A stretch of 52,974 nucleotides of DNA from Bacteroidota bacterium. Its GTDB lineage: Bacteria; Bacteroidota; Ignavibacteria; Ignavibacteriales; Ignavibacteriaceae. The position numbers were made by a program, and so were the translations under genes. The DNA is taken from positions 1 to 52,974 of the forward strand of contig JAKAKL010000117.1 of assembly GCA_021824565.1 (NCBI GenBank), read 5' to 3'. The notes beneath the pieces are model-generated. The model made no database searches and was not told the DNA's origin. It was given only the letters and a program-made list of their open reading frames with translations. This document shows, piece by piece, positions 35,294 to 51,110 of this stretch. Within the stretch, counting starts at the first letter, position 1; every line of letters begins with the position of its first letter.

Positions 35294-36715
<1,422 letters not shown>

Positions 36716-36741
36716 TTTTTTCTTACCCTAAATATTTTTTT

Positions 36742-36792
36742 ATGGATTTTCAATTCTATCTACGACTTGTTTTAAATGAATTGAGAATCCAT
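36742..36792. terminator. Long inverted repeat after tyrosine phenol-lyase
   Basis: ATGGATTTTCAATTC (36742-36756) and GAATTGAGAATCCAT (36778-36792) form 15-bp arms with one mismatch and a 21-base loop. It lies 27 bases after the tpl stop and 126 before the Lrp start. It lacks a following T-run, so it is a weak intrinsic terminator at best; it may stabilise the tpl transcript or act as a partial stop. Confidence 0.45.
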
Positions 36793-36917
36793 ATATTAAT
36801 TGATCTTAATTATTCCAATCTACGAATCTAAATCACAGAATTTATGATGGTCAGACTTGACAAATTATTTTTTAATTATCATTTTGTGAATGTTCTAATA
36901 AATAATTTATTAACCGA

Positions 36918-37367
36918 ATGATTAACGAAACAGATGCAAAAATTCTGAATATACTTCAGAAAAATTCCAGAACGTCAAACGCTGAAATTGCGAGGCAGAT
37001 AAAGATGGCTCCGTCAGCGGTTCTGGAAAGAATAAGAAAGCTGGAACTAAAAAAAATTGTTAAAGGATATGCGGCACAAATAGATCCGGAGCATGTGGAA
37101 AGAGGGCTGCTCGCTTTTATCGAAGTAAAAGCCAACGGTCCAATTGTTGATCAAAGAACGGCGAAAGAGTTATCAAAGATAGATGAAATTCAGGAAGTTC
37201 ATATTGTTGCAGGGGAAGATTGCTATCTTGTAAAAGTGCGCGTTAAAGATACTGAATCCCTGACCCGGCTTCTAAGGACCAAGTTTGCCTCTATCAAATC
37301 TTTAAGAACAACAAATACAACGATTGTTCTTGAAACTGTAAAAGAGACGAACGAACTTGTTTTTTAG
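36918..37367 (+). CDS. Lrp/AsnC family regulator
   Basis: The 149-residue protein has an N-terminal helix-turn-helix (about 1-55: INETDAKILNILQKNSR, then EIARQIKMAPSAVLERIRKLE). A C-terminal RAM ligand-binding domain follows (about 65-145, with VAGEDCYLVKVRVKDTESL). Such regulators sense amino acids and form octamers on DNA. Lying between tpl and the homogentisate genes, it probably senses tyrosine or phenylalanine and controls the locus (inference from position). Confidence 0.93.
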   Translation: MINETDAKILNILQKNSRTSNAEIARQIKMAPSAVLERIRKLELKKIVKGYAAQIDPEHVERGLLAFIEVKANGPIVDQRTAKELSKIDEIQEVHIVAGEDCYLVKVRVKDTESLTRLLRTKFASIKSLRTTNTTIVLETVKETNELVF

Positions 37368-37394
37368 TTAGAATATCAGTTCGAAATTAACAAG

Positions 37395-37412
37395 CGCTCA
37401 TGCGGATGAGCG
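37395..37412 (+). promoter_or_regulatory. Short hairpin between the Lrp gene and hppD
   Basis: CGCTCAT (37395-37401) pairs with ATGAGCG (37406-37412) across a four-base loop. There is no T-run after it. It lies in the leader of hppD, 77 bases before the start, and could be a weak terminator for the regulator gene or a leader structure. Confidence 0.35.
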
Positions 37413-37489
37413 TTCAAAATAGATCCTTATTCAAAACAAAATTTTGAGTAGGCGGTTGTTTATCAAAAAATAAATTCTAAGGAGTGATT

Positions 37490-38614
37490 ATGTCTAACCC
37501 GATTGGCATCACTGGTTATGATTTCGTCGAATTCTATGTCGGCTCAGCTAAGATGTGGGCATACTGGCATGCAAAGGCGATGGGGATGAATATCGCCGGT
37601 TATCTGGGACCTGAAACAGGTATCAAAGATAAAGTTTCATATTATCTCGTTAAAAATAAAATTCAGATTGTTATTACTTCTGCAGTGAAGCCAAGCAACT
37701 ATGAAGTATCGTCTTTTGTAGAACGACACGGAGACGGAGTAAAAAGATGGTCGCTTAAAGTAAAGGATGTTCATAAGGCTTTTGAAAATTCTATTTTGAA
37801 TGGAGCAGTTCCTGTTAGGAATCCTAAAAAGTTTAGTGATGACTCGGGTTTTATTGAAGAGGCAGCGATTAAGCTTTACGATGATACCGAAATAGTTTTT
37901 ATAAATCGGGATAATTATAAGGGTATTTTCAAACCAGGTTTTGGCAAGCATATACAAAAAATAAATCTGGATTTTGTAGAAACCGGCTTGAACGAAATTG
38001 ATCATATTGTGGGAAATGTAAGAATAAATGAAATGAACTTGTGGGAGAATTATATCAATAAGAGTTTAAACTTTGAAACATTTATAGAATTCGGCGCAGG
38101 AGACATATCTACTCAATATTCAGCTCTACTATCAAAAGTCGTTAGGTCTAAAGATGGCGTTCCGATAAAAAATCCAATTAACGAACCGTACGAAGGGAAA
38201 AAGAAATCGCAAATCGAAGAATATATTGAAGAATATCTTGGCTCCGGAATCCAGCACATTGCTATTTCTACAAATAATATTATTAGCACGATAGATTCGA
38301 TGAAGCGAAACGGTGTGGAATTTCTTACCCCGCCTGATACTTATTATGATATGTTAAAAGAGCGAGCTTCGGAAATATCGGAAAGTATAAGCGAACTAAA
38401 AAAGTTTGGAATACTCTGTGACAACTCTGAAGGCAATGGATATTTATTGCAGCTATTTACCAAGCCTATCGGCGACCGCCCCACATTTTTTTATGAGATT
38501 ATACAGCGACGTAACGGCGCTCTCGGCTTCGGGCAAGGAAATTTTCAATCGCTCTTTGAATCGATTGAAAAAGATCAAATGCTTAGAGGAAATTTTGATA
38601 GAGATGAAAATTAA
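37490..38614 (+). CDS. hppD: 4-hydroxyphenylpyruvate dioxygenase
   Basis: About 374 residues. The iron enzyme converts 4-hydroxyphenylpyruvate and O2 to homogentisate and CO2. It has two vicinal-oxygen-chelate halves. The iron ligands are a His in IDHIVGNVR, a His in GIQHIAISTNN and a Glu in FFYEIIQRR, followed by the usual GFGQGNFQSLFESIE tail. I start it at ATG 37490, where AAGGAG lies five bases upstream; the GTG at 37484 overlaps that site. It heads the homogentisate operon. Confidence 0.96.
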   Translation: MSNPIGITGYDFVEFYVGSAKMWAYWHAKAMGMNIAGYLGPETGIKDKVSYYLVKNKIQIVITSAVKPSNYEVSSFVERHGDGVKRWSLKVKDVHKAFENSILNGAVPVRNPKKFSDDSGFIEEAAIKLYDDTEIVFINRDNYKGIFKPGFGKHIQKINLDFVETGLNEIDHIVGNVRINEMNLWENYINKSLNFETFIEFGAGDISTQYSALLSKVVRSKDGVPIKNPINEPYEGKKKSQIEEYIEEYLGSGIQHIAISTNNIISTIDSMKRNGVEFLTPPDTYYDMLKERASEISESISELKKFGILCDNSEGNGYLLQLFTKPIGDRPTFFYEIIQRRNGALGFGQGNFQSLFESIEKDQMLRGNFDRDEN

Positions 38615-38658
38615 AATAAAAATAATTTTAAGAATTAATTTTCTTTACGGAGGCTGAC

Positions 38659-39822
38659 ATGCCATTTTATATTAAGCTAGGAAATGTACCGCATAAGCGG
38701 CATACAACATTTTATAAACAAGATGGAAAATCTCTTTACCGTGAAGAGTTATTCAGCACAAAAGGATTTTCCGGCATATATTCAATCAAGTATCATTTAT
38801 ATATGCCTCCGCAGGTTGAAAACATTAAAGAAATTCAAAAAGAAAATTTAGTTGAATGGAAAGAAGCGCCGCTTCAGTATTATCATTTTGTTACTGAAAG
38901 GAAAAAATCAGCAGGAAATTTTTATTCCGCTCGAAATGAATTCTTGAGAAACTCACATTGCATTATCTCAACTGCGCAGGTTTCAGAGGATACGGATATC
39001 TTTTATAGAAATAGTTTTATGCATGAAATAATTTTTATTCATCATGGCAGCGGTGTTTTTTACTCTGAGTATGGTCAACTTACATTTGAGGATTGGGATT
39101 ACATTGTCGTTCCAAAGGGTACGACTTATCAAATGAAGTTTAATAATTATAATAATATAAAATTGTTTGTAATAGAGTCGGACACTCCGTTTGAAATACC
39201 AAATCATTATAGAAATGAATATGGACAGCTTAAAGAAGATGCTCCATACTATGAGAGAGACTTTAAGGTTCCAAAGTTTATGGAGCCGGTAGATAAAAAA
39301 GGAAAATTCTCTCTAACTTTAAAAGTTAATAATAGAATTTTTGAATATGAGCTTCCTCATCATCCTTTCGATGTTATAGGTTGGGATGGATTTTTGTATC
39401 CGTATTCATTCAACTTAAAAGAATACGCTCCTAAGGTCGGCAAGCTTCATTTGCCTCCGCCGATCCATCTTATGTTTATTACTGAACATTTTGTCGTTTG
39501 TAATTTTGTTCCGCGTCTATTTGATTTCCATCCCGATTCAATTCCCGCTCCTTATTATCATTCTAACGTAGACAGTGATGAAGTAATATATTATGTGCAT
39601 GGAGATTTTATGTCCCGTACCGGCGTGAAAGAAACATCGATTACATTGCATCCAATGGGAATACCACACGGACCGCAGCCAGGAAAAATGGAAGCGTCTA
39701 TCGGCAAGAAAGATACTGAAGAATATGCAATCATGATCGATTCATTTTCACATTTGTCCGTTACAAAAAATGTTAAAGATACGATGGTTGAAGATTATCA
39801 TCATTCGTGGCTTGAAAAGTAA
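38659..39822 (+). CDS. hmgA: Homogentisate 1,2-dioxygenase
   Basis: The 387-residue cupin-fold iron enzyme opens homogentisate to maleylacetoacetate with O2. The metal site is carried by YYHSNVDSDEVIYYVHGDF (His and Glu) and MGIPHGPQPG (His) in the C-terminal third; the N-terminal half has the second cupin (FIHHGSGVFYSEYGQL). GGAGG lies seven bases before the ATG. It is 44 bases after hppD and 14 before the aminotransferase. Confidence 0.96.
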   Translation: MPFYIKLGNVPHKRHTTFYKQDGKSLYREELFSTKGFSGIYSIKYHLYMPPQVENIKEIQKENLVEWKEAPLQYYHFVTERKKSAGNFYSARNEFLRNSHCIISTAQVSEDTDIFYRNSFMHEIIFIHHGSGVFYSEYGQLTFEDWDYIVVPKGTTYQMKFNNYNNIKLFVIESDTPFEIPNHYRNEYGQLKEDAPYYERDFKVPKFMEPVDKKGKFSLTLKVNNRIFEYELPHHPFDVIGWDGFLYPYSFNLKEYAPKVGKLHLPPPIHLMFITEHFVVCNFVPRLFDFHPDSIPAPYYHSNVDSDEVIYYVHGDFMSRTGVKETSITLHPMGIPHGPQPGKMEASIGKKDTEEYAIMIDSFSHLSVTKNVKDTMVEDYHHSWLEK

Positions 39823-39836
39823 ATTCAAAAAAAATA

Positions 39837-41012
39837 ATGATTACAATACCCAAACATATTCAAGAGCTTATACCTTATAAAGCCGGGAAGCCCATCGAGG
39901 AATTAGCTAGAGAGAAAGGACTTACAAAAATTGTCAAGCTTGCATCAAATGAAAATCCTTTAGGACCTTCTCCCAAAGCATTAGAGGCAATTATAAAATA
40001 TTCCGCCGATGTTAATAGATATACAAATCCTTCTGCTTATAAACTTGTTAATGCTATTTCAAAAAAATACGATCAGCCTCCGCAGAAAATTATTACCGGA
40101 AGCGGCTCCGATTCATTGCTTCAATATATTGTTACAGCTTTTTCTGATGATGATGATGAAATACTAACTTCACATGGAACGTTTATAGGCTGGTATGTTA
40201 ATGCTGATAAATACGCGCGCAAGTCTAAACTAGTTCTGTTAAATAATTATCACGTTGATATAGCGGGGCTTGCTGACAATATAACGACGAAAACAAAAAT
40301 TATCTATCTTGCGAACCCTAATAACCCAACCGGAACGATGTTTACTAAAAATGAGTTTGATAATTTTCTGTTAAAAGTTCCTAAGAATATTCTGGTTATT
40401 CTTGATGAAGCATATACTATTTACGCCGAAGATAATCCGGACTATCCAGATGGTCTTAAGTATGATTTAGAAAATTTAATTGTGTTACGAACTATGTCTA
40501 AAGCATATGGATTAGCTGGAATAAGAATCGGTTTTGCAATTGGACCGGAATATTTAATTAAAGCCTTATATAAAGTTAAACTTCCGTTTGAACCTAATCT
40601 TCTAGCTCAAGAAGCAGCCATAGCAGCTTTAGACGATAATGACTTCATCATCCGCTCAAAGGAATTAAATAAAAAATCTTTGGAAATGATGCGGAAGAAA
40701 TTTGATGAACTAAAAATTAAATACGTTCCAACGAGTGCTAACTTTTATCTTATATTATTTCAAAATGAAGAATATGCTGAAGAGTTTAACGAAGAATGCC
40801 TGAACAGCGGCTTGATAGTCCGACCGTTAAAGTCGTTTGGTATAAATAATGGCATTAGAATTAACTCGGGCACTATTGAAGAAACAATTTTTGCTTTAGA
40901 AGTAATTGAAAAAGTCCACCTTAAACTTTTAAAAAAATACAGCACAGTTTTTACAATAAATAAATTCAAAAAAAAACATTATGAAGCTAGTTTCTTACGA
41001 AATCAAAGATAA
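39837..41012 (+). CDS. HisC-type aminotransferase, probable tyrosine/aromatic transaminase
   Basis: The 391-residue PLP enzyme is of the HisC/aspartate-aminotransferase fold: KLASNENPLGPSPKALEAI, GSGSDSLLQYIV, LANPNNPTGTMFT and TMSKAYGLAGIRIGF with the PLP lysine. Placed among homogentisate genes, it most likely makes 4-hydroxyphenylpyruvate from tyrosine rather than histidinol phosphate; this is by context. Its last 20 or so residues lie beyond the usual family end and overlap the next gene by 32 bases, after two poly-A runs (40931-40937 and 40968-40976), so the true end may be earlier. Confidence 0.8.
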   Translation: MITIPKHIQELIPYKAGKPIEELAREKGLTKIVKLASNENPLGPSPKALEAIIKYSADVNRYTNPSAYKLVNAISKKYDQPPQKIITGSGSDSLLQYIVTAFSDDDDEILTSHGTFIGWYVNADKYARKSKLVLLNNYHVDIAGLADNITTKTKIIYLANPNNPTGTMFTKNEFDNFLLKVPKNILVILDEAYTIYAEDNPDYPDGLKYDLENLIVLRTMSKAYGLAGIRIGFAIGPEYLIKALYKVKLPFEPNLLAQEAAIAALDDNDFIIRSKELNKKSLEMMRKKFDELKIKYVPTSANFYLILFQNEEYAEEFNEECLNSGLIVRPLKSFGINNGIRINSGTIEETIFALEVIEKVHLKLLKKYSTVFTINKFKKKHYEASFLRNQR

Positions 41013-41985
41013 AGAGAGATTGGGAATTTTTTTTGAGGGCAAGATATTTGATGTTCAAAAAAACGGAACGACGTTGGGACTTAATCTGCCGTCAAGCATG
41101 AAGGATTTTCTAAATGGCTGGGATAAATATTATAATAAAATGTTAAAGCTGTATCAGAAAATAACAAAAGGATATATAAAAAAATCTTATAAAAAAAATG
41201 AAATAAAATTATTAGCTCCTGTGCCTCATCCTACGTCTTGCCGGGACGGCTATGCTTTTAGGCAGCATGTTGAAACAGCAAGAAGGAATAGAGGTGTTGA
41301 AATGATTCCTGAGTTTGATCAATTTCCAGTTTTCTATTTTACGAACCACAATGCTGTCTTTGGAGAGGGAGATATTGTGGTCGAAGACGATCATTTAGAA
41401 AGACTGGACTTTGAACTCGAAGCTGCTGTTGTTATTAATAAGAGAGGTAAAAATATTAAATCTCATGAAGCTGATTCCTTCATTGCAGGTTATATGGTAA
41501 TGAATGATTTATCTGCAAGAAGATTGCAGTCTGAAGAAATGAAATTGAATTTAGGTCCCGCAAAGGGTAAAGATTTCGCTACTACAATCGGACCATATCT
41601 TGTCACTACTGACGAACTGGAGACATTTAAAATAACATCTCCTGTTGGAAATAAATACGATTTGGAAATGAAGGCTTATCATAACGGCAAGCAAGTTTCC
41701 GAAGGGAACCTTAAGGATATGAACTGGACTTTCGCACAAATTATAGAAAGAGCTTCTTACGGTGTTGAAATATTTCCTGGAGATATTATAGGCTCTGGTA
41801 CAGTTGGTACCGGATGCTATCTCGAATTAAATGATACCTGGGCTTTGGAAGCTAAAGCAGCAGGGAAGGAATTTACTCCAATTTGGCTAAAAGAAAACGA
41901 CATAATAGAATTGGAAATAGCAGGGCTTGGCAGACTATCAAATAAAATTATTAAGTCTCCTTATAACAATAAATTAAAAAAATAA
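40981..41985 (+). CDS. fahA: Fumarylacetoacetate hydrolase
   Basis: The 334-residue enzyme splits fumarylacetoacetate to fumarate and acetoacetate. It has an N-terminal cap (1-70) and the FAH fold: CRDGYAFRQHVE, a metal site in DFELEAAVV, GYMVMNDLSARRLQ, KGKDFATTIGP and IIGSGTVGTGCYLE. It follows hmgA and the aminotransferase with a start inside the aminotransferase reading frame and little sign of its own ribosome binding site (a poly-A stretch precedes it), suggesting translational coupling. Confidence 0.9.
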   Translation: MKLVSYEIKDKERLGIFFEGKIFDVQKNGTTLGLNLPSSMKDFLNGWDKYYNKMLKLYQKITKGYIKKSYKKNEIKLLAPVPHPTSCRDGYAFRQHVETARRNRGVEMIPEFDQFPVFYFTNHNAVFGEGDIVVEDDHLERLDFELEAAVVINKRGKNIKSHEADSFIAGYMVMNDLSARRLQSEEMKLNLGPAKGKDFATTIGPYLVTTDELETFKITSPVGNKYDLEMKAYHNGKQVSEGNLKDMNWTFAQIIERASYGVEIFPGDIIGSGTVGTGCYLELNDTWALEAKAAGKEFTPIWLKENDIIELEIAGLGRLSNKIIKSPYNNKLKK

Positions 41986-42023
41986 TTTCAAATAATTTCT
42001 CGTTTTATTAAAAAGAAAACAAA

Positions 42024-43985
<1,962 letters not shown>

Positions 43986-46491: not shown

Positions 46492-47970
46492 ATGGCTCAA
46501 ACTTCTGCTAAGACTAAAAGAGAAATCAAATTAATCCTTTTCTCCATTTTGTTGTTTAACACATTGCTGATCGGAAAAGGATTAAAGAATAAGCACGAGA
46601 AAAATGTTTATAAAAAAATTACTACCGCCGACGTCTATCTAACCGCCAAAGATACCGAAGATAGAATAAGCCATAAAGGAATGCTTACATTTGAATCTTT
46701 TGAACAGCCTGAAGAAAGCGCTCCAACAATTATTTTGGATAGAACAAAAACTTTCCAAAAAATAATAGGAATTGGCGGCGCTTTAACGGATGCCTCAGCA
46801 GAAGTTTTTTATAAAATGCCCGTGGAGAAACAAAAAGAAATCTTAACCGCATTGTTTAATAAAGAAAAAGGCGACGGCTTTTCGATTGGCAGAACAAATA
46901 TTCATAGCTGCGATTTCTCAAGCTCAAGCTATACTTATGATGAAACTCCCGGCGATACTGCATTGAAAGATTTTACCGTCGAGCACGATTTAAAGTATAG
47001 AATTCCTTTTATCAAAGCAGCCATAAAAGAAAATGGCAATGACTTTAAGTTGTTTGCATCGCCGTGGAGTCCTCCGGCGTGGATGAAAACTAATAACGAT
47101 ATGCTTCACGGCGGAAAATTAAAACCGGAGTACGATCAAACATGGGCGAATTATCTTGTTAAGTTTGTAAAAGCTTATCGCAAGGAAGGAATCAATATTT
47201 GGGGAATGACTGTTCAAAATGAACCAATGGCTGTGCAGCGCTGGGAATCATGCATCTTTACTGCGGATGAAGAAAGAGACTTTGTAAAAAATTATTTAGG
47301 ACCTGCACTGCATAATTCCGGTCTGTCTAATCTTAAACTGATGATCTGGGACCACAATCGCGGAATTATGTATCAGCGGGCTGCAGCAGTTTATGAAGAT
47401 ACCGCCGCTGCAAAATATGTTTGGGGAACAGGATTCCATTGGTACGTGGGAAATCATTTCGATAATGTCAGGCTTGTTCACGATGCGTTCCCTAAAAAGC
47501 ATCTTTTATTTACGGAAGGAACCGAAGCTAACTTTGATCCCGACAGCTTGCTTGTATGGAAGTGGGGAGAAATGTTCGGCAAGTCTATTATTATGGATTT
47601 AAATAATTGGGCGGAAGGCTGGACTGCGTGGAATGTTATTCTTGATCAGCATGGCGGACCTAATCATACGGATAATTTTTGTATGGCTCCGATAATTTGT
47701 AACACCGAAACCGGCAAGCTTACTTATATGAACTCTTTTTATTATATCGGGCATTTCTCCAAATTTATTAGACCCGGTGCAAAAAGAATTATTTGCTCTT
47801 CAAACTCTGATGATCTTCTTGCAACTGCGTTTGAAAACAAGGACGGCAAAATTGCTGTAGTTGTATTAAATACCACGGATAAGGATATTGATTTCTACAC
47901 TTGGATCGAAGAAAGCGCCGTTAAGTACAATAGCCCCGCTCATTCAATTATTACTTTGGTCTTGCAATAA
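46492..47970 (+). CDS. GH30 family glycosidase, exported or membrane-anchored
   Basis: The 492-residue enzyme has an N-terminal hydrophobic segment (about residues 13-28) serving as signal or anchor. The GH30 barrel follows: GIGGALTDASAEVF, SPWSPPAWMKTN, and the acid/base E244 in VQNEPMAVQ. Later come WGTGFHWYVGNHF, the nucleophile E342 in FTEGTEAN, and a C-terminal beta-sandwich (about 410-492). GH30 members of this subgroup are glucosylceramidase- or beta-1,6-glucanase-like; the substrate is unknown. It follows asnA by 29 bases and ends in a terminator. Confidence 0.92.
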   Translation: MAQTSAKTKREIKLILFSILLFNTLLIGKGLKNKHEKNVYKKITTADVYLTAKDTEDRISHKGMLTFESFEQPEESAPTIILDRTKTFQKIIGIGGALTDASAEVFYKMPVEKQKEILTALFNKEKGDGFSIGRTNIHSCDFSSSSYTYDETPGDTALKDFTVEHDLKYRIPFIKAAIKENGNDFKLFASPWSPPAWMKTNNDMLHGGKLKPEYDQTWANYLVKFVKAYRKEGINIWGMTVQNEPMAVQRWESCIFTADEERDFVKNYLGPALHNSGLSNLKLMIWDHNRGIMYQRAAAVYEDTAAAKYVWGTGFHWYVGNHFDNVRLVHDAFPKKHLLFTEGTEANFDPDSLLVWKWGEMFGKSIIMDLNNWAEGWTAWNVILDQHGGPNHTDNFCMAPIICNTETGKLTYMNSFYYIGHFSKFIRPGAKRIICSSNSDDLLATAFENKDGKIAVVVLNTTDKDIDFYTWIEESAVKYNSPAHSIITLVLQ

Positions 47971-48197: not shown

Positions 48198-50741
48198 ATG
48201 ATTGCTCTATTTAATAAACTCGTTAAAAAGTATTTGTTTTATTTCTGCTTCGTCCTTTTGCTTGCATTTCTTGCCGAAGGAATTAATGGTTTTATAAAAC
48301 TAAATAACTTTACTTCTATTTCCGCTTCAGAAGCCTTTATTGATGCTAAAAGGGATTTAACATTAGGGCTTCTGGGAAGCACTTTAATGTCGTTTATCGT
48401 TGGACTCTATCTTCAGATTACAACATTTAAACCTCTTAAAGTTCTCGCCGAAAAACTTAAAACAATGGCTGAAAAAGATTTTGCGTCCTTATCAACTGCA
48501 TTAATGGAAATGGCTCACGGCAATTTAACCTCCGGTATAAAACTAGAATCAAATACGATTAAAACAACCATCAACGGAAGAGTTGGCGAGATGGTTACAG
48601 GCTTAAATACAATCATTGCGAATCTTAATGAAGCAAGCAAAGAATTTAATTCCGCCACCGACAAACCCTGCCAGCGCTTATTTTATATCGGGGCAGATTC
48701 TTACCTTGAAGGACGGGCATGCGGTGAGGCGATGGGAAAGGCTTTGAACGGCAAAGGCAAAGTCGCAGTTATTTTAGAAAGCCTTGATCTAATCGGGCAT
48801 GAATTAAGAAGAAAAGGATTCCAAAATTCTTTGCGAGAATTGTTTCCTTCTATTTCAATCGTGGAAACCATTGAAACAAAACTTAGCTTCGATAAATGTT
48901 ATAACGAAACCGAATCATTAATAAAAAAATATCCTGACCTAAACGGCATTTATGTTACTTACGGCGGCATTGCAACATCGAAAGCCGTTTCAGAAACAGG
49001 CAAAGCAGGCAGAGTAAAAGTAGTCTGCCACGACCTTGCGGATGAAACAATGAATTACCTAAAGCAGGGCGTTGTTACCGCTACTCTTTCGCAGGATGTT
49101 TTTGCTCAAGGGCATGACCCCGTAATTCATTTATTCAATCATGTGGTCTCAAGATGGGAGCCGAGCCAGCCGCGCCTGCTGACAAATATGGATGTTGTTA
49201 CTGCCGAAAATTATACTCAATTCTGGCAAGCGGGCAGAGGCGTTATTGAAACCGAAGCCATTGCTGCAAGAAGACCAAAGCCGATGAATGTTTCTAAAAG
49301 ACAAATTAAAATTGCAGTTCTCGGCAGACAGGGAGATTCATTCTGGAATGCATTTAAACATGGCGTTGAAAAAGCTGAAATAGAGCTTCGCAGCTTTAAT
49401 GCAAAAGTCGATTGGATAATTCCAAAAGGCTCTCACGAAAATAAAGTAATTGATGTAAGCGCTTCAAAATATGGTCCTGCTATTGAACAATGCATTGAGC
49501 AGAAATATGATGCGATTAGCGTAGGAATATTTGATAAAGATTTAATCCCGTATATTAACAGAGCGGTTGAAAGAGGAATTACCGTCGCAACGTTCAACAG
49601 TGAGCCGGTAAGTTTACGCGGGACTTTTATTACGTTAAAGAAACGCTCGGTTAAATTGCTCGATCTTAGTCAGAGCCTTGCCGAAAGCGCTATGCAGTCC
49701 CTCGAAGTTTCAAATCATAACTCCGAGACTATTCAAAATATTGCTCAAAGCTTAAATGAAGAATCTGTTTCCGTGAATACGGCAAGCACTAACATGCAGC
49801 AGATAGCCACTTCGATTGAATTGATCGCGAAAGATTCTCACGAACAGAGGTTAGCCGCAGAACAGGTATCCTCTTCTGTCATAGAAATAACGGACGCTAT
49901 CAATGCATCAAACTCAAGCGCCAAAGCAGTTGTCAATGCTTCTTCCGAATCAATCGAAGTTGCCAAGCACGGAGTTGAAACAGTAATGCAGAATCTTGAG
50001 CAGATGAAAAAGATAGAAGATATTGTAAGCGTGTTCGCTCAAAAGATTGAAGGCATGGCGAAGCAGTCTGAAGAAATAGAAAAAATTATCGTAACAATCG
50101 AAGAGATAGCCGAGCAGACGAATCTTCTTGCGCTGAACGCAGCAATTGAAGCTGCGAGAGCGGGCGATCATGGCAGAGGCTTTGCCGTTGTTGCCGATGA
50201 AGTGAGAAACTTAGCCGAGCGCTCTGCTAACGCTACTAAACAAACTTCAAGCCTTATTAATAAAGTCCAAAAAAATATTTCGGAAGCGGGGCAGTCGATT
50301 AATGTTATAGTAGACAAAGTTAAAGAAGGCACAAGCACTGCGAATAAATCAGGCGTTGCAATTGATAAGTTCCTTTCCTCATCGAATAATATGAAGAGCC
50401 AGATTGATATTATGGCTAAGGCAAACAACGACGTCGCAGCCATTATGACGGGACTTGTTAAATCAATCGATAAGATCTCTAACGTAATCGAACAGAACAT
50501 GAGCGCTACGGAAGAACTGAGTGCAAGCGTTCAGCATACGGTTGGAATGATCAGCAAGGTCGCTTCTATTAGCGATAAGAACGCTTCTACTATCAACAGC
50601 ATTTCGCAGAAGACTGTAGAAGCCACATCCAAAGCCCAGAAGGTCGGACAGGTTGCCGATTGGCTTACCGGCATGGCGAACGAGCTTCAAGCCGCTACAG
50701 CTCAATTCAAACTTGAGTCCGACGGGTATAATCTGAATTAG
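48198..50741 (+). CDS. Chemotaxis receptor with cytoplasmic binding-protein lobes in permuted order
   Basis: The 847-residue protein has two membrane segments near the N-terminus (about 12-26 and 54-72) with only about 27 residues between. A HAMP-like helical stretch follows (about 77-150). Residues about 159-345 then match the C-terminal half of a sugar-binding Peripla_BP_4 protein ([36 protein letters not shown]). Residues about 370-480 match the N-terminal half ([20 protein letters not shown], then [15 protein letters not shown]). The methyl-accepting signalling domain (about 485-840) ends it, with the [18 protein letters not shown] hairpin tip. The sensor halves lie on the cytoplasmic side. 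GGGAAG precedes ATG 48198. Confidence 0.88.
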
Positions 50742-50755
50742 ATAATATTACTTTA

Positions 50756-50852
50756 ACTCAACCCCCAACCCCTTCTCTTGCAAAGAGAAGGGGAGCATTG
50801 TTTCTGTTTTAAAAGTCCCTCTCTTTTCAAGAGAGGGATTTAGGGTGAGTTT
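50756..50852. repeat. REP-like double-hairpin element
   Basis: Two strong hairpins lie side by side: 50769-50793 (CCCCTTCTCTT, loop GCA, AAGAGAAGGGG) and 50816-50838 (TCCCTCTCTT, loop TTC, AAGAGAGGGA). They are flanked by AACTCAACCC on the left and GGGTGAGTT on the right, so the whole forms an outer inverted repeat. The structure is that of a BIME/REP element dispersed by RAYT transposases. It also sits 15 bases after the receptor gene, where it may work as a terminator. The rest of the gap to 51110 shows nothing. Confidence 0.75.
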
Positions 50853-51110
50853 CTCAAGCGACTTTACTATTCCCTTACTTACTCTTTATATCCTGAAATT
50901 ATTAACAAATAAGGAAAGGCTTTAGCCGCATTTAAAATCATTATAAGAATGAAGCCGGGATTTTGAGATAATATTTTTCCATGCCCTAAAGGACTTGGCT
51001 GCAAATACGAATTCCTTGTGCAAATTAGGTAAATATTTTTTCCCCGCATAATGTTGAAAATGTTATTTCAATTTCCTAATTTGTAAATAGTAAAATTAAT
51101 TAAGGTCAAG

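Follow-up and report, generated by a model that had tools for sequence, protein, structure and literature searches.

A chemoreceptor carrying a circularly permuted, probably cytosolic sensor related to sugar-binding proteins

As a rule, chemoreceptors contact binding-protein folds outside the cell, where these are often proteins in their own right, and sensors of the Cache and 4HB types are normally extracytosolic, placed between two membrane segments. There are, nevertheless, indications of internal use of such folds: Peripla_BP_5 appears once in a table of chemoreceptor domains, in the part of that source available to us (PMC8547431), and the accessible text of a second source has binding-protein profiles also matching the sensor domains of cytosolic signalling systems (PMC9602780). 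As far as these two texts go, an internal binding-protein-like sensor as such thus has precedent. The fold is also found in permuted form. TpMglB-2 (Tp0684) of Treponema pallidum is described, in the accessible text of its report, as a 'type Ic' permuted glucose-binding lipoprotein, which is cut inside the N-lobe, between strands 3 and 4, and has strands 1–3 at its C-terminus (PMC4990184).

We analysed a stretch of 52,974 nucleotides (hereafter the window) from a Bacteroidota bacterium (contig JAKAKL010000117.1 of assembly GCA_021824565.1), in which an earlier reading of the DNA (the original prediction) had pointed to a chemoreceptor gene. Both the open reading frame and the two membrane segments assigned to it were found as predicted, the latter by hydropathy (Table 1). 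Along the frame, two membrane helices are followed by a HAMP-like segment, the C-half of Peripla_BP_4, its N-half and an MCP signalling domain (MCPsignal at residues 582–762, E 6e-39 with Pfam); in NCBIfam, no model's cut-off was reached by the receptor protein. Peripla_BP_4 and MCPsignal were both present in 16/16 members (the window protein included) and in 17/17 further homologues. The predicted HAMP-like stretch fared less uniformly. In the window protein the HAMP match (E 0.15) lies under the Pfam threshold, and HAMP was found in 0/16 members at E 0.01 and in 2/17 further homologues at E 0.001. These two, the more distant homologues L079 (residues 93–143) and L083 (residues 138–187), exceed the curated cut-off, and their sensor matches start 14 and 5 residues, respectively, after the end of HAMP. 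Residues 28–159 of the window protein also gave weak matches (E 1e-4 to 5.7e-4) in six other frames of unspecified product.

Table 1. Features of the receptor gene and its surroundings (window coordinates; residues refer to the receptor protein)
Feature	Coordinates	Strand	Basis or remark
Chemoreceptor ORF	48198..50741	+	847 aa plus stop, ATG start; Pfam
Membrane segment 1 (residues 8–26)	48219..48275	+	best hydropathy window; helix 2–36 in full-length model
Membrane segment 2 (residues 54–72)	48357..48413	+	hydropathy; helix 43–106 in full-length model
HAMP-like helix-connector-helix (about residues 79–154)	48432..48659	+	sub-threshold Pfam; HAMP in homologues L079, L083
Hinge-like segment, first copy (residues 149–160)	48642..48677	+	Pfam, 36-receptor alignment
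Sensor C-lobe, placed first (residues 150–345)	48645..49232	+	Pfam, VIA-align; lobe end judged from alignments
Linker, C-lobe end to N-lobe start (residues 346–366, approximate limits)	49233..49295	+	alignments
Sensor N-lobe, placed second (residues 367–475)	49296..49622	+	Pfam profile 5–92 = residues 375–472
Hinge segment, second copy (residues 465–475)	49590..49622	+	Pfam, 36-receptor alignment
MCP signalling hairpin (residues 473 to 835 helical)	49614..50702	+	low-confidence full model; Pfam MCPsignal 582–762
Terminator-like hairpin after receptor gene	50769..50793	+	inside interspersed repeat 50750–50855

The original prediction had read residues of about 159–345 as the C-terminal half, and of about 370–480 as the N-terminal half, of a Peripla_BP_4 protein. 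Indeed, Pfam detected Peripla_BP_4 (E 2.9e-35) and aligned residues 150–306 with columns 86–244 of the profile, its C-terminal part, and residues 375–472, when scanned as a fragment, with columns 5–92, its N-terminal part (E 1.3e-8). Both halves of the profile are therefore present, with the C-lobe first; since the C-half precedes the N-half, the sensor is a circular permutant and no canonical member of Peripla_BP_4. The cut falls at profile columns 86–92, the first crossover between the lobes, and this overlap is matched twice, once by each end of the domain. It is thus at the hinge that the N-lobe ends, in the place where the C-lobe should begin, and the signalling helices begin there instead, exactly as had been proposed.

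With residues 366–470 placed before residues 154–365, which gives the normal order, the sensor produced a single Pfam hit over profile columns 5–244 (141.6 bits), whereas the same residues in native order produced two pieces (128.2 bits). The best PDB match of the reordered sensor was 2qvc, residues 3–255 falling in one alignment (96.6 bits); residues 1–481 in native order scored 80.4 bits against 2qvc, with the C-lobe as the sole significant piece. A profile made from 16 reordered sensors reported a single domain in 15/15 normal-order proteins, which were hand-picked from the loci of a search through 247 genomes of the phylum, and it beat the native-order profile on all 15 and on MglB. In genome searches the reordered query gave one-stretch matches to other proteins (frames mostly of 300–470 residues), many of them spanning most of the query. 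In contrast, against the 16 receptor copies of a second phylum (described below) the reordered query gave two separate pieces in 14 and the C-lobe alone in 2. The permuted-order profile ran through both halves of all 16 copies, in 14 of them from position 1–4 to 345 or 346 of 346; in the remaining two it started at 11 and at 43, the latter at a contig end. The swapped order is maintained along the alignments of homologues, and a search for homologues of the same order, as the original prediction had suggested, found it in many separate assemblies belonging to three groups. Judged by these profile comparisons, the swapped order is beyond chance and the observation of permuted halves is confirmed.

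Receptors of this kind are scattered. A match covering most of the query, at E up to 1e-20, was found in 14/391 genomes of the class, the own genome included. Three of the six genomes of its genus were positive, no other genus of its family was positive at E 1e-20 among these 391 genomes, and the remaining matches fell outside the family. In the phylum sample of 247 genomes, matches of any extent at E 0.001 were present in 45, full-length ones in the own genome and in G039 only. A contig scan returned 15 loci (9 Bacteroidetes, 2 Melioribacter, 1 Kryptoniota, 1 metagenome-assembled genome (MAG) named only 'bacterium', and 2 in one acidobacterial MAG); it used two short patterns, which distant relatives in other phyla could escape. 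The phylum of the 'bacterium' MAG, the second phylum mentioned above, had the receptor in 10/82 genomes, the starting genome included, with 16 copies, and that of the acidobacterial MAG in 1/347, namely the starting genome, which has 4 copies. The distribution is patchy, so that the receptor must be dispensable. The design is, at the same time, kept in receptors of three bacterial groups, which argues that the permuted-sensor receptor is a real and probably working sensor.

We placed 36 receptors in a tree with 18 binding proteins and 10 LacI-type regulators, rooted for drawing only. A branch with support 100/99 separated the receptors from all the other proteins, and the binding proteins and LacI-type proteins formed two further groups; a single origin of the permuted form is, thus, the simplest reading. 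'LacI-type' and 'lipoprotein' are labels assigned by visual reading of N-terminal motifs. An origin from LacI-type regulators was considered because a LacI-type protein topped the first profile comparison. Lipoprotein-like binding proteins, however, score higher (136.0 bits for L122 against 98.1 bits for the best LacI-type protein), and the tree, its root being for drawing only, holds three separate groups; a LacI-type origin is thus no more than a candidate. The signalling tip (aligned to residues 629–684 of the window protein) has diverged in the 20 receptors outside the window's class (L060–L062, L068, L070 and L073–L087), where, for example, LLGINAAIEAAHAG replaces the window-class sequence. 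These 20 receptors have 309–324 residues after the sensor, as opposed to 366–373 in complete window-class members. Given their diverged tips and shorter signalling regions, they may meet other CheA/CheW partners.

The side of the membrane on which the sensor lies was assessed with a simple 19-residue hydropathy average in the same 36 receptors. Two membrane segments were found in 30 of them, one in three (L070, L080 and L084) and none in three (L061, L062 and the 5′-truncated L085). Wherever they occur, the segments precede the sensor, and none lies between the sensor and the MCP domain (36/36). L061 and L062 are bounded upstream by a stop codon and are thus soluble as read, unless a membrane part is hidden by an upstream frame error. 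Between the two membrane segments lies a loop of 27 residues in the window protein and of 9–27 across the 30 receptors, too short for a ligand domain. Rather than being exported or lipidated like a binding protein, the sensor is placed by hydropathy on the same side of the membrane as the MCP domain. Contact with CheA requires the MCP domain to be in the cytosol, and no membrane segment follows the sensor; the sensor is, therefore, very probably cytosolic, in agreement with the location inside the cell given to it at the outset.

Ten residues of MglB are named as glucose contacts in the accessible text of its comparison with Tp0684 (D14, F16, N91, H152, D154, R158, W183, N211, D236 and N256; PMC4990184). 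F382, N467, R204, D279, Q299 and D380 of the receptor correspond to MglB F16, N91, R158, D236, N256 and D14, respectively, and L198, G200, L229 and Y255 replace H152, D154, W183 and N211; five contacts are thus identical, one is conservatively changed and four are not kept. As the receptor and MglB align only distantly (21.8 bits), loop positions are less sure than motif positions. Among the 36 receptors F382 is conserved in 35, R204 in 36, D279 in 35, Q299 in 34 and N467 in 33, the position of D380 varies (13 D, 15 S), and H278, W320 and W343 are invariant (36/36). From this pattern of residues a working pocket built from both lobes is likely, and its ligand is probably something other than D-glucose bound as in MglB.

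The original prediction had proposed AlphaFold modelling of the full protein. The outcome was mixed: the model of residues 96–510 (16 sequences) was confident (pLDDT 85.0, pTM 0.81), with 27/31 ten-residue blocks over residues 156–465 averaging 85 or more, but the full-length model was poor (pLDDT 67.8, pTM 0.45), above all in the signalling hairpin. Structural comparison of the model with VIA-align gave a best chain of Z 26.4 over 191 residues, mainly of the C-lobe, and Z 21.6–26.4 over 172–199 residues among the 50 matches listed, nearly all of them to sugar-binding proteins. Since the aligner follows sequence order, such coverage of the C-lobe is expected of a permutant and is no proof of one.

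The two ends of the permuted domain share an FN motif, in EFNSATDKP at residues 149–157 and in TFNSEP at residues 465–470. In the first copy N151 is present in 35/35 receptors having a residue at this position, and in the second P470 is present in 36/36 and N467 is conserved as described above for the pocket. The repeated motif is short, and its first copy lies within a helix in both the sensor model and the full-length model.

We weighed several other explanations for these results. It is scarcely credible that the two regions are whole, unrelated domains, or that their order is an assembly error or an artefact of gene fusion. The named records from the pattern-based contig scan are, admittedly, all metagenome-assembled; however, each half matches its own part of the profile only, the two being complementary halves of one Peripla_BP_4 fold rather than two separate whole domains, and the same order recurs within one open reading frame in receptors from separate genomes, in many assemblies and three groups. 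We give just as little credence to a sensor in the periplasm, like that of normal binding-protein-type receptors. Such a location would suit the best-scoring normal-order relatives, which resemble secreted lipoproteins (N-termini judged by eye), but it is contradicted by the hydropathy pattern, in which membrane segments occur only before the sensor, none occurs from there to the MCP domain in 36/36 receptors and two receptors lack such segments entirely, and by the need of the MCP domain for the cytosol.

Two further readings concern how the sensor is assembled and used, and both deserve more weight, though we think each of them unlikely. Chemoreceptors are dimers, and the lobes are connected by a linker of ~21 residues, so a domain-swapped arrangement has to be considered, in which the C-lobe of each chain packs against the N-lobe of its partner, leaving no true circular permutant within a chain; sequence cannot separate it from the in-chain arrangement. 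Swapped dimers have been described for heme sensor domains of Geobacter MCPs, according to the accessible text of PMC3460858. The monomer model of residues 96–510, in contrast, is confident overall (pTM 0.81), which suggests that the lobes pair within the chain. Alternatively, the sensor fold might be a structural or docking module that binds a protein partner or nothing, its pocket being unused. In line with this, 4/10 of the MglB glucose contacts are lost and a conserved sugar gene nearby was absent among the loci scanned. Yet F382, R204, D279, Q299 and N467 span both lobes and are kept in 33–36 of the 36 receptors, and a dead pocket would need none of them.

The genomic surroundings bear on the output and the ligand to different degrees. 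Three CheW-domain matches, one of them inside a 589-aa frame, occur in the own genome alongside a match to FHIPEP (FlhA family, flagellar export; E 1.1e-261); together they make a chemotactic output plausible. A GH30 glycosidase gene (46492–47970, same strand) lies just upstream of the receptor in the window, and a gene for a melibiase-like glycosidase (1153–3330 of L062) lies upstream of the receptor of that locus, with one ORF between. Across the scanned neighbours of other loci (8 proteins at 5 loci, the L062 melibiase included) the others were of other kinds, and glycosidases were not seen elsewhere. As receptor neighbours are common to close relatives only, the glycosidases weigh little as a clue to the ligand, and we set aside sugar genes beside the receptor as such a clue. 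In two relatives a PDZ-GAF-SpoIIE phosphatase is encoded directly upstream of the receptor (L048 437–2977 and L049 1450–4020). The own genome contains 12 matches (75–100% identity) to the repeat right after the receptor gene in the window (50750–50855), that repeat being one of them. Elsewhere in the window, positions 35327–43985 encode a beta-eliminating lyase, hydroxyphenylpyruvate- and homogentisate-dioxygenase-like proteins, an aminotransferase, a fumarylacetoacetase-like hydrolase and an acetyl-CoA-synthetase-like enzyme, a cluster that looks like one for tyrosine breakdown.

Taken together, we consider it likely that the protein is a membrane-anchored chemoreceptor with a cytosolic, circularly permuted type I (Peripla_BP_4) sensor in line with its stalk, which would act as a hinge-cut flytrap for an internal sugar-like metabolite. 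The interpretation of the sensor as permuted and cytosolic, with which the original prediction began, is supported by the sequence comparisons; that the sensor binds a ligand and signals is what we infer. In the proposed mechanism, the two halves would clamp an internal sugar or a metabolite resembling one. The HAMP-like helix (residues 128–153) would enter at the hinge of the C-lobe, and the signalling helix (from residues 471–473) would leave at the hinge of the N-lobe. Because the cut sits at the hinge, lobe closure would shift the entry and exit helices relative to each other, and this movement or twist of one helix against the other would change CheA activity. The cut probably goes back to a normal binding protein that was duplicated in tandem and then lost its outer lobes; circular permutants usually arise in this way, and such a history would explain the hinge-like segments at both ends.

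More tentatively, and with slightly less than an even chance in our estimate, the protein may stand for a new class of chemoreceptors whose stalk passes through the hinge of an internal Venus flytrap and in which an intracellular sugar or metabolite, once bound, would link the closing of the lobes mechanically to the array. The permutation would then exist because both connections thereby sit at the hinge. If so, the swimming machinery would have a direct readout of internal sugar pools, and it would become possible to test whether some bacteria steer by internal, not outside, sugar levels. Such a receptor would also be nature's equivalent of engineered hinge-inserted biosensors and a template for designing them, as well as a clean case of circular permutation altering the mechanics of a sensor.

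The relation of this receptor to known proteins differs from one system to the next. The T. maritima glucose-binding protein (2h3h/2qvc) and E. coli MglB belong to the same fold family and share both lobes with its sensor, whereas the halves of the latter are swapped, it is very probably cytosolic, it sits inside a receptor and it does not have four of the MglB contacts. Tp0684 and the receptor sensor are both natural circular permutants of this fold. Tp0684, however, is a periplasmic lipoprotein in the accessible account of it, and the receptor sensor, apart from its predicted cytosolic location, is cut one step later, at the hinge: the receptor N-lobe extends through profile column 92 and contains N467 (MglB N91), which sets it apart from type Ic. 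Foldseek aligned TpMglB-2 chains to our model over 384–390 columns, but with an rmsd of 7–8 and 10–12% identity, and Tp0684 was absent from the 52 PDB sequences matched by residues 1–481 at E up to 1. A Tp0684-like permutant was rejected on the grounds of the different cut and this absence, the Foldseek alignment notwithstanding. A second natural permutant, judging by its sequence, is PDB 5er3 (named as a sugar ABC transporter, periplasmic sugar-binding protein), whose cut would lie inside the C-lobe. Its chain residues 29–266 match receptor residues 218–464, that is, the second part of the C-lobe plus the N-lobe (E 8.5e-13), and its residues 183–329 match the reordered N-lobe plus the first part of the C-lobe (E 5.3e-6). 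The 5er3 protein is a binding protein by name, while the window protein is a receptor; we met no mention of the 5er3 permutation in the literature found on related subjects.

LacI-type regulators, as labelled by eye, have the same fold as an internal sensor and match the reordered profile in one stretch, but they keep the normal order, have a DNA-binding output and occupy a separate branch of the tree. Two of the four other chemoreceptors of the own genome were scanned and are of ordinary kinds, one of the dCache/PAS type and one of the 4HB type with HAMP and MCPsignal (Pfam). They share with the window receptor the MCP domain and a HAMP or HAMP-like element; unlike these, the window receptor has an outside loop of only 27 residues and its sensor after the HAMP-like segment. 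No chemoreceptor whose binding-protein sensor is permuted or hinge-cut was found in the literature searched, as far as titles and the beginnings of abstracts tell. The statement of the original prediction that no described mechanism was known has to be qualified for sugar-binding proteins, of which permutants with other cuts are known (Tp0684 and, by sequence, 5er3). Chemoreceptors and Peripla_BP_4 permutants thus both have known representatives, and what appears novel in the window protein is the permuted, hinge-cut form in which it combines them.
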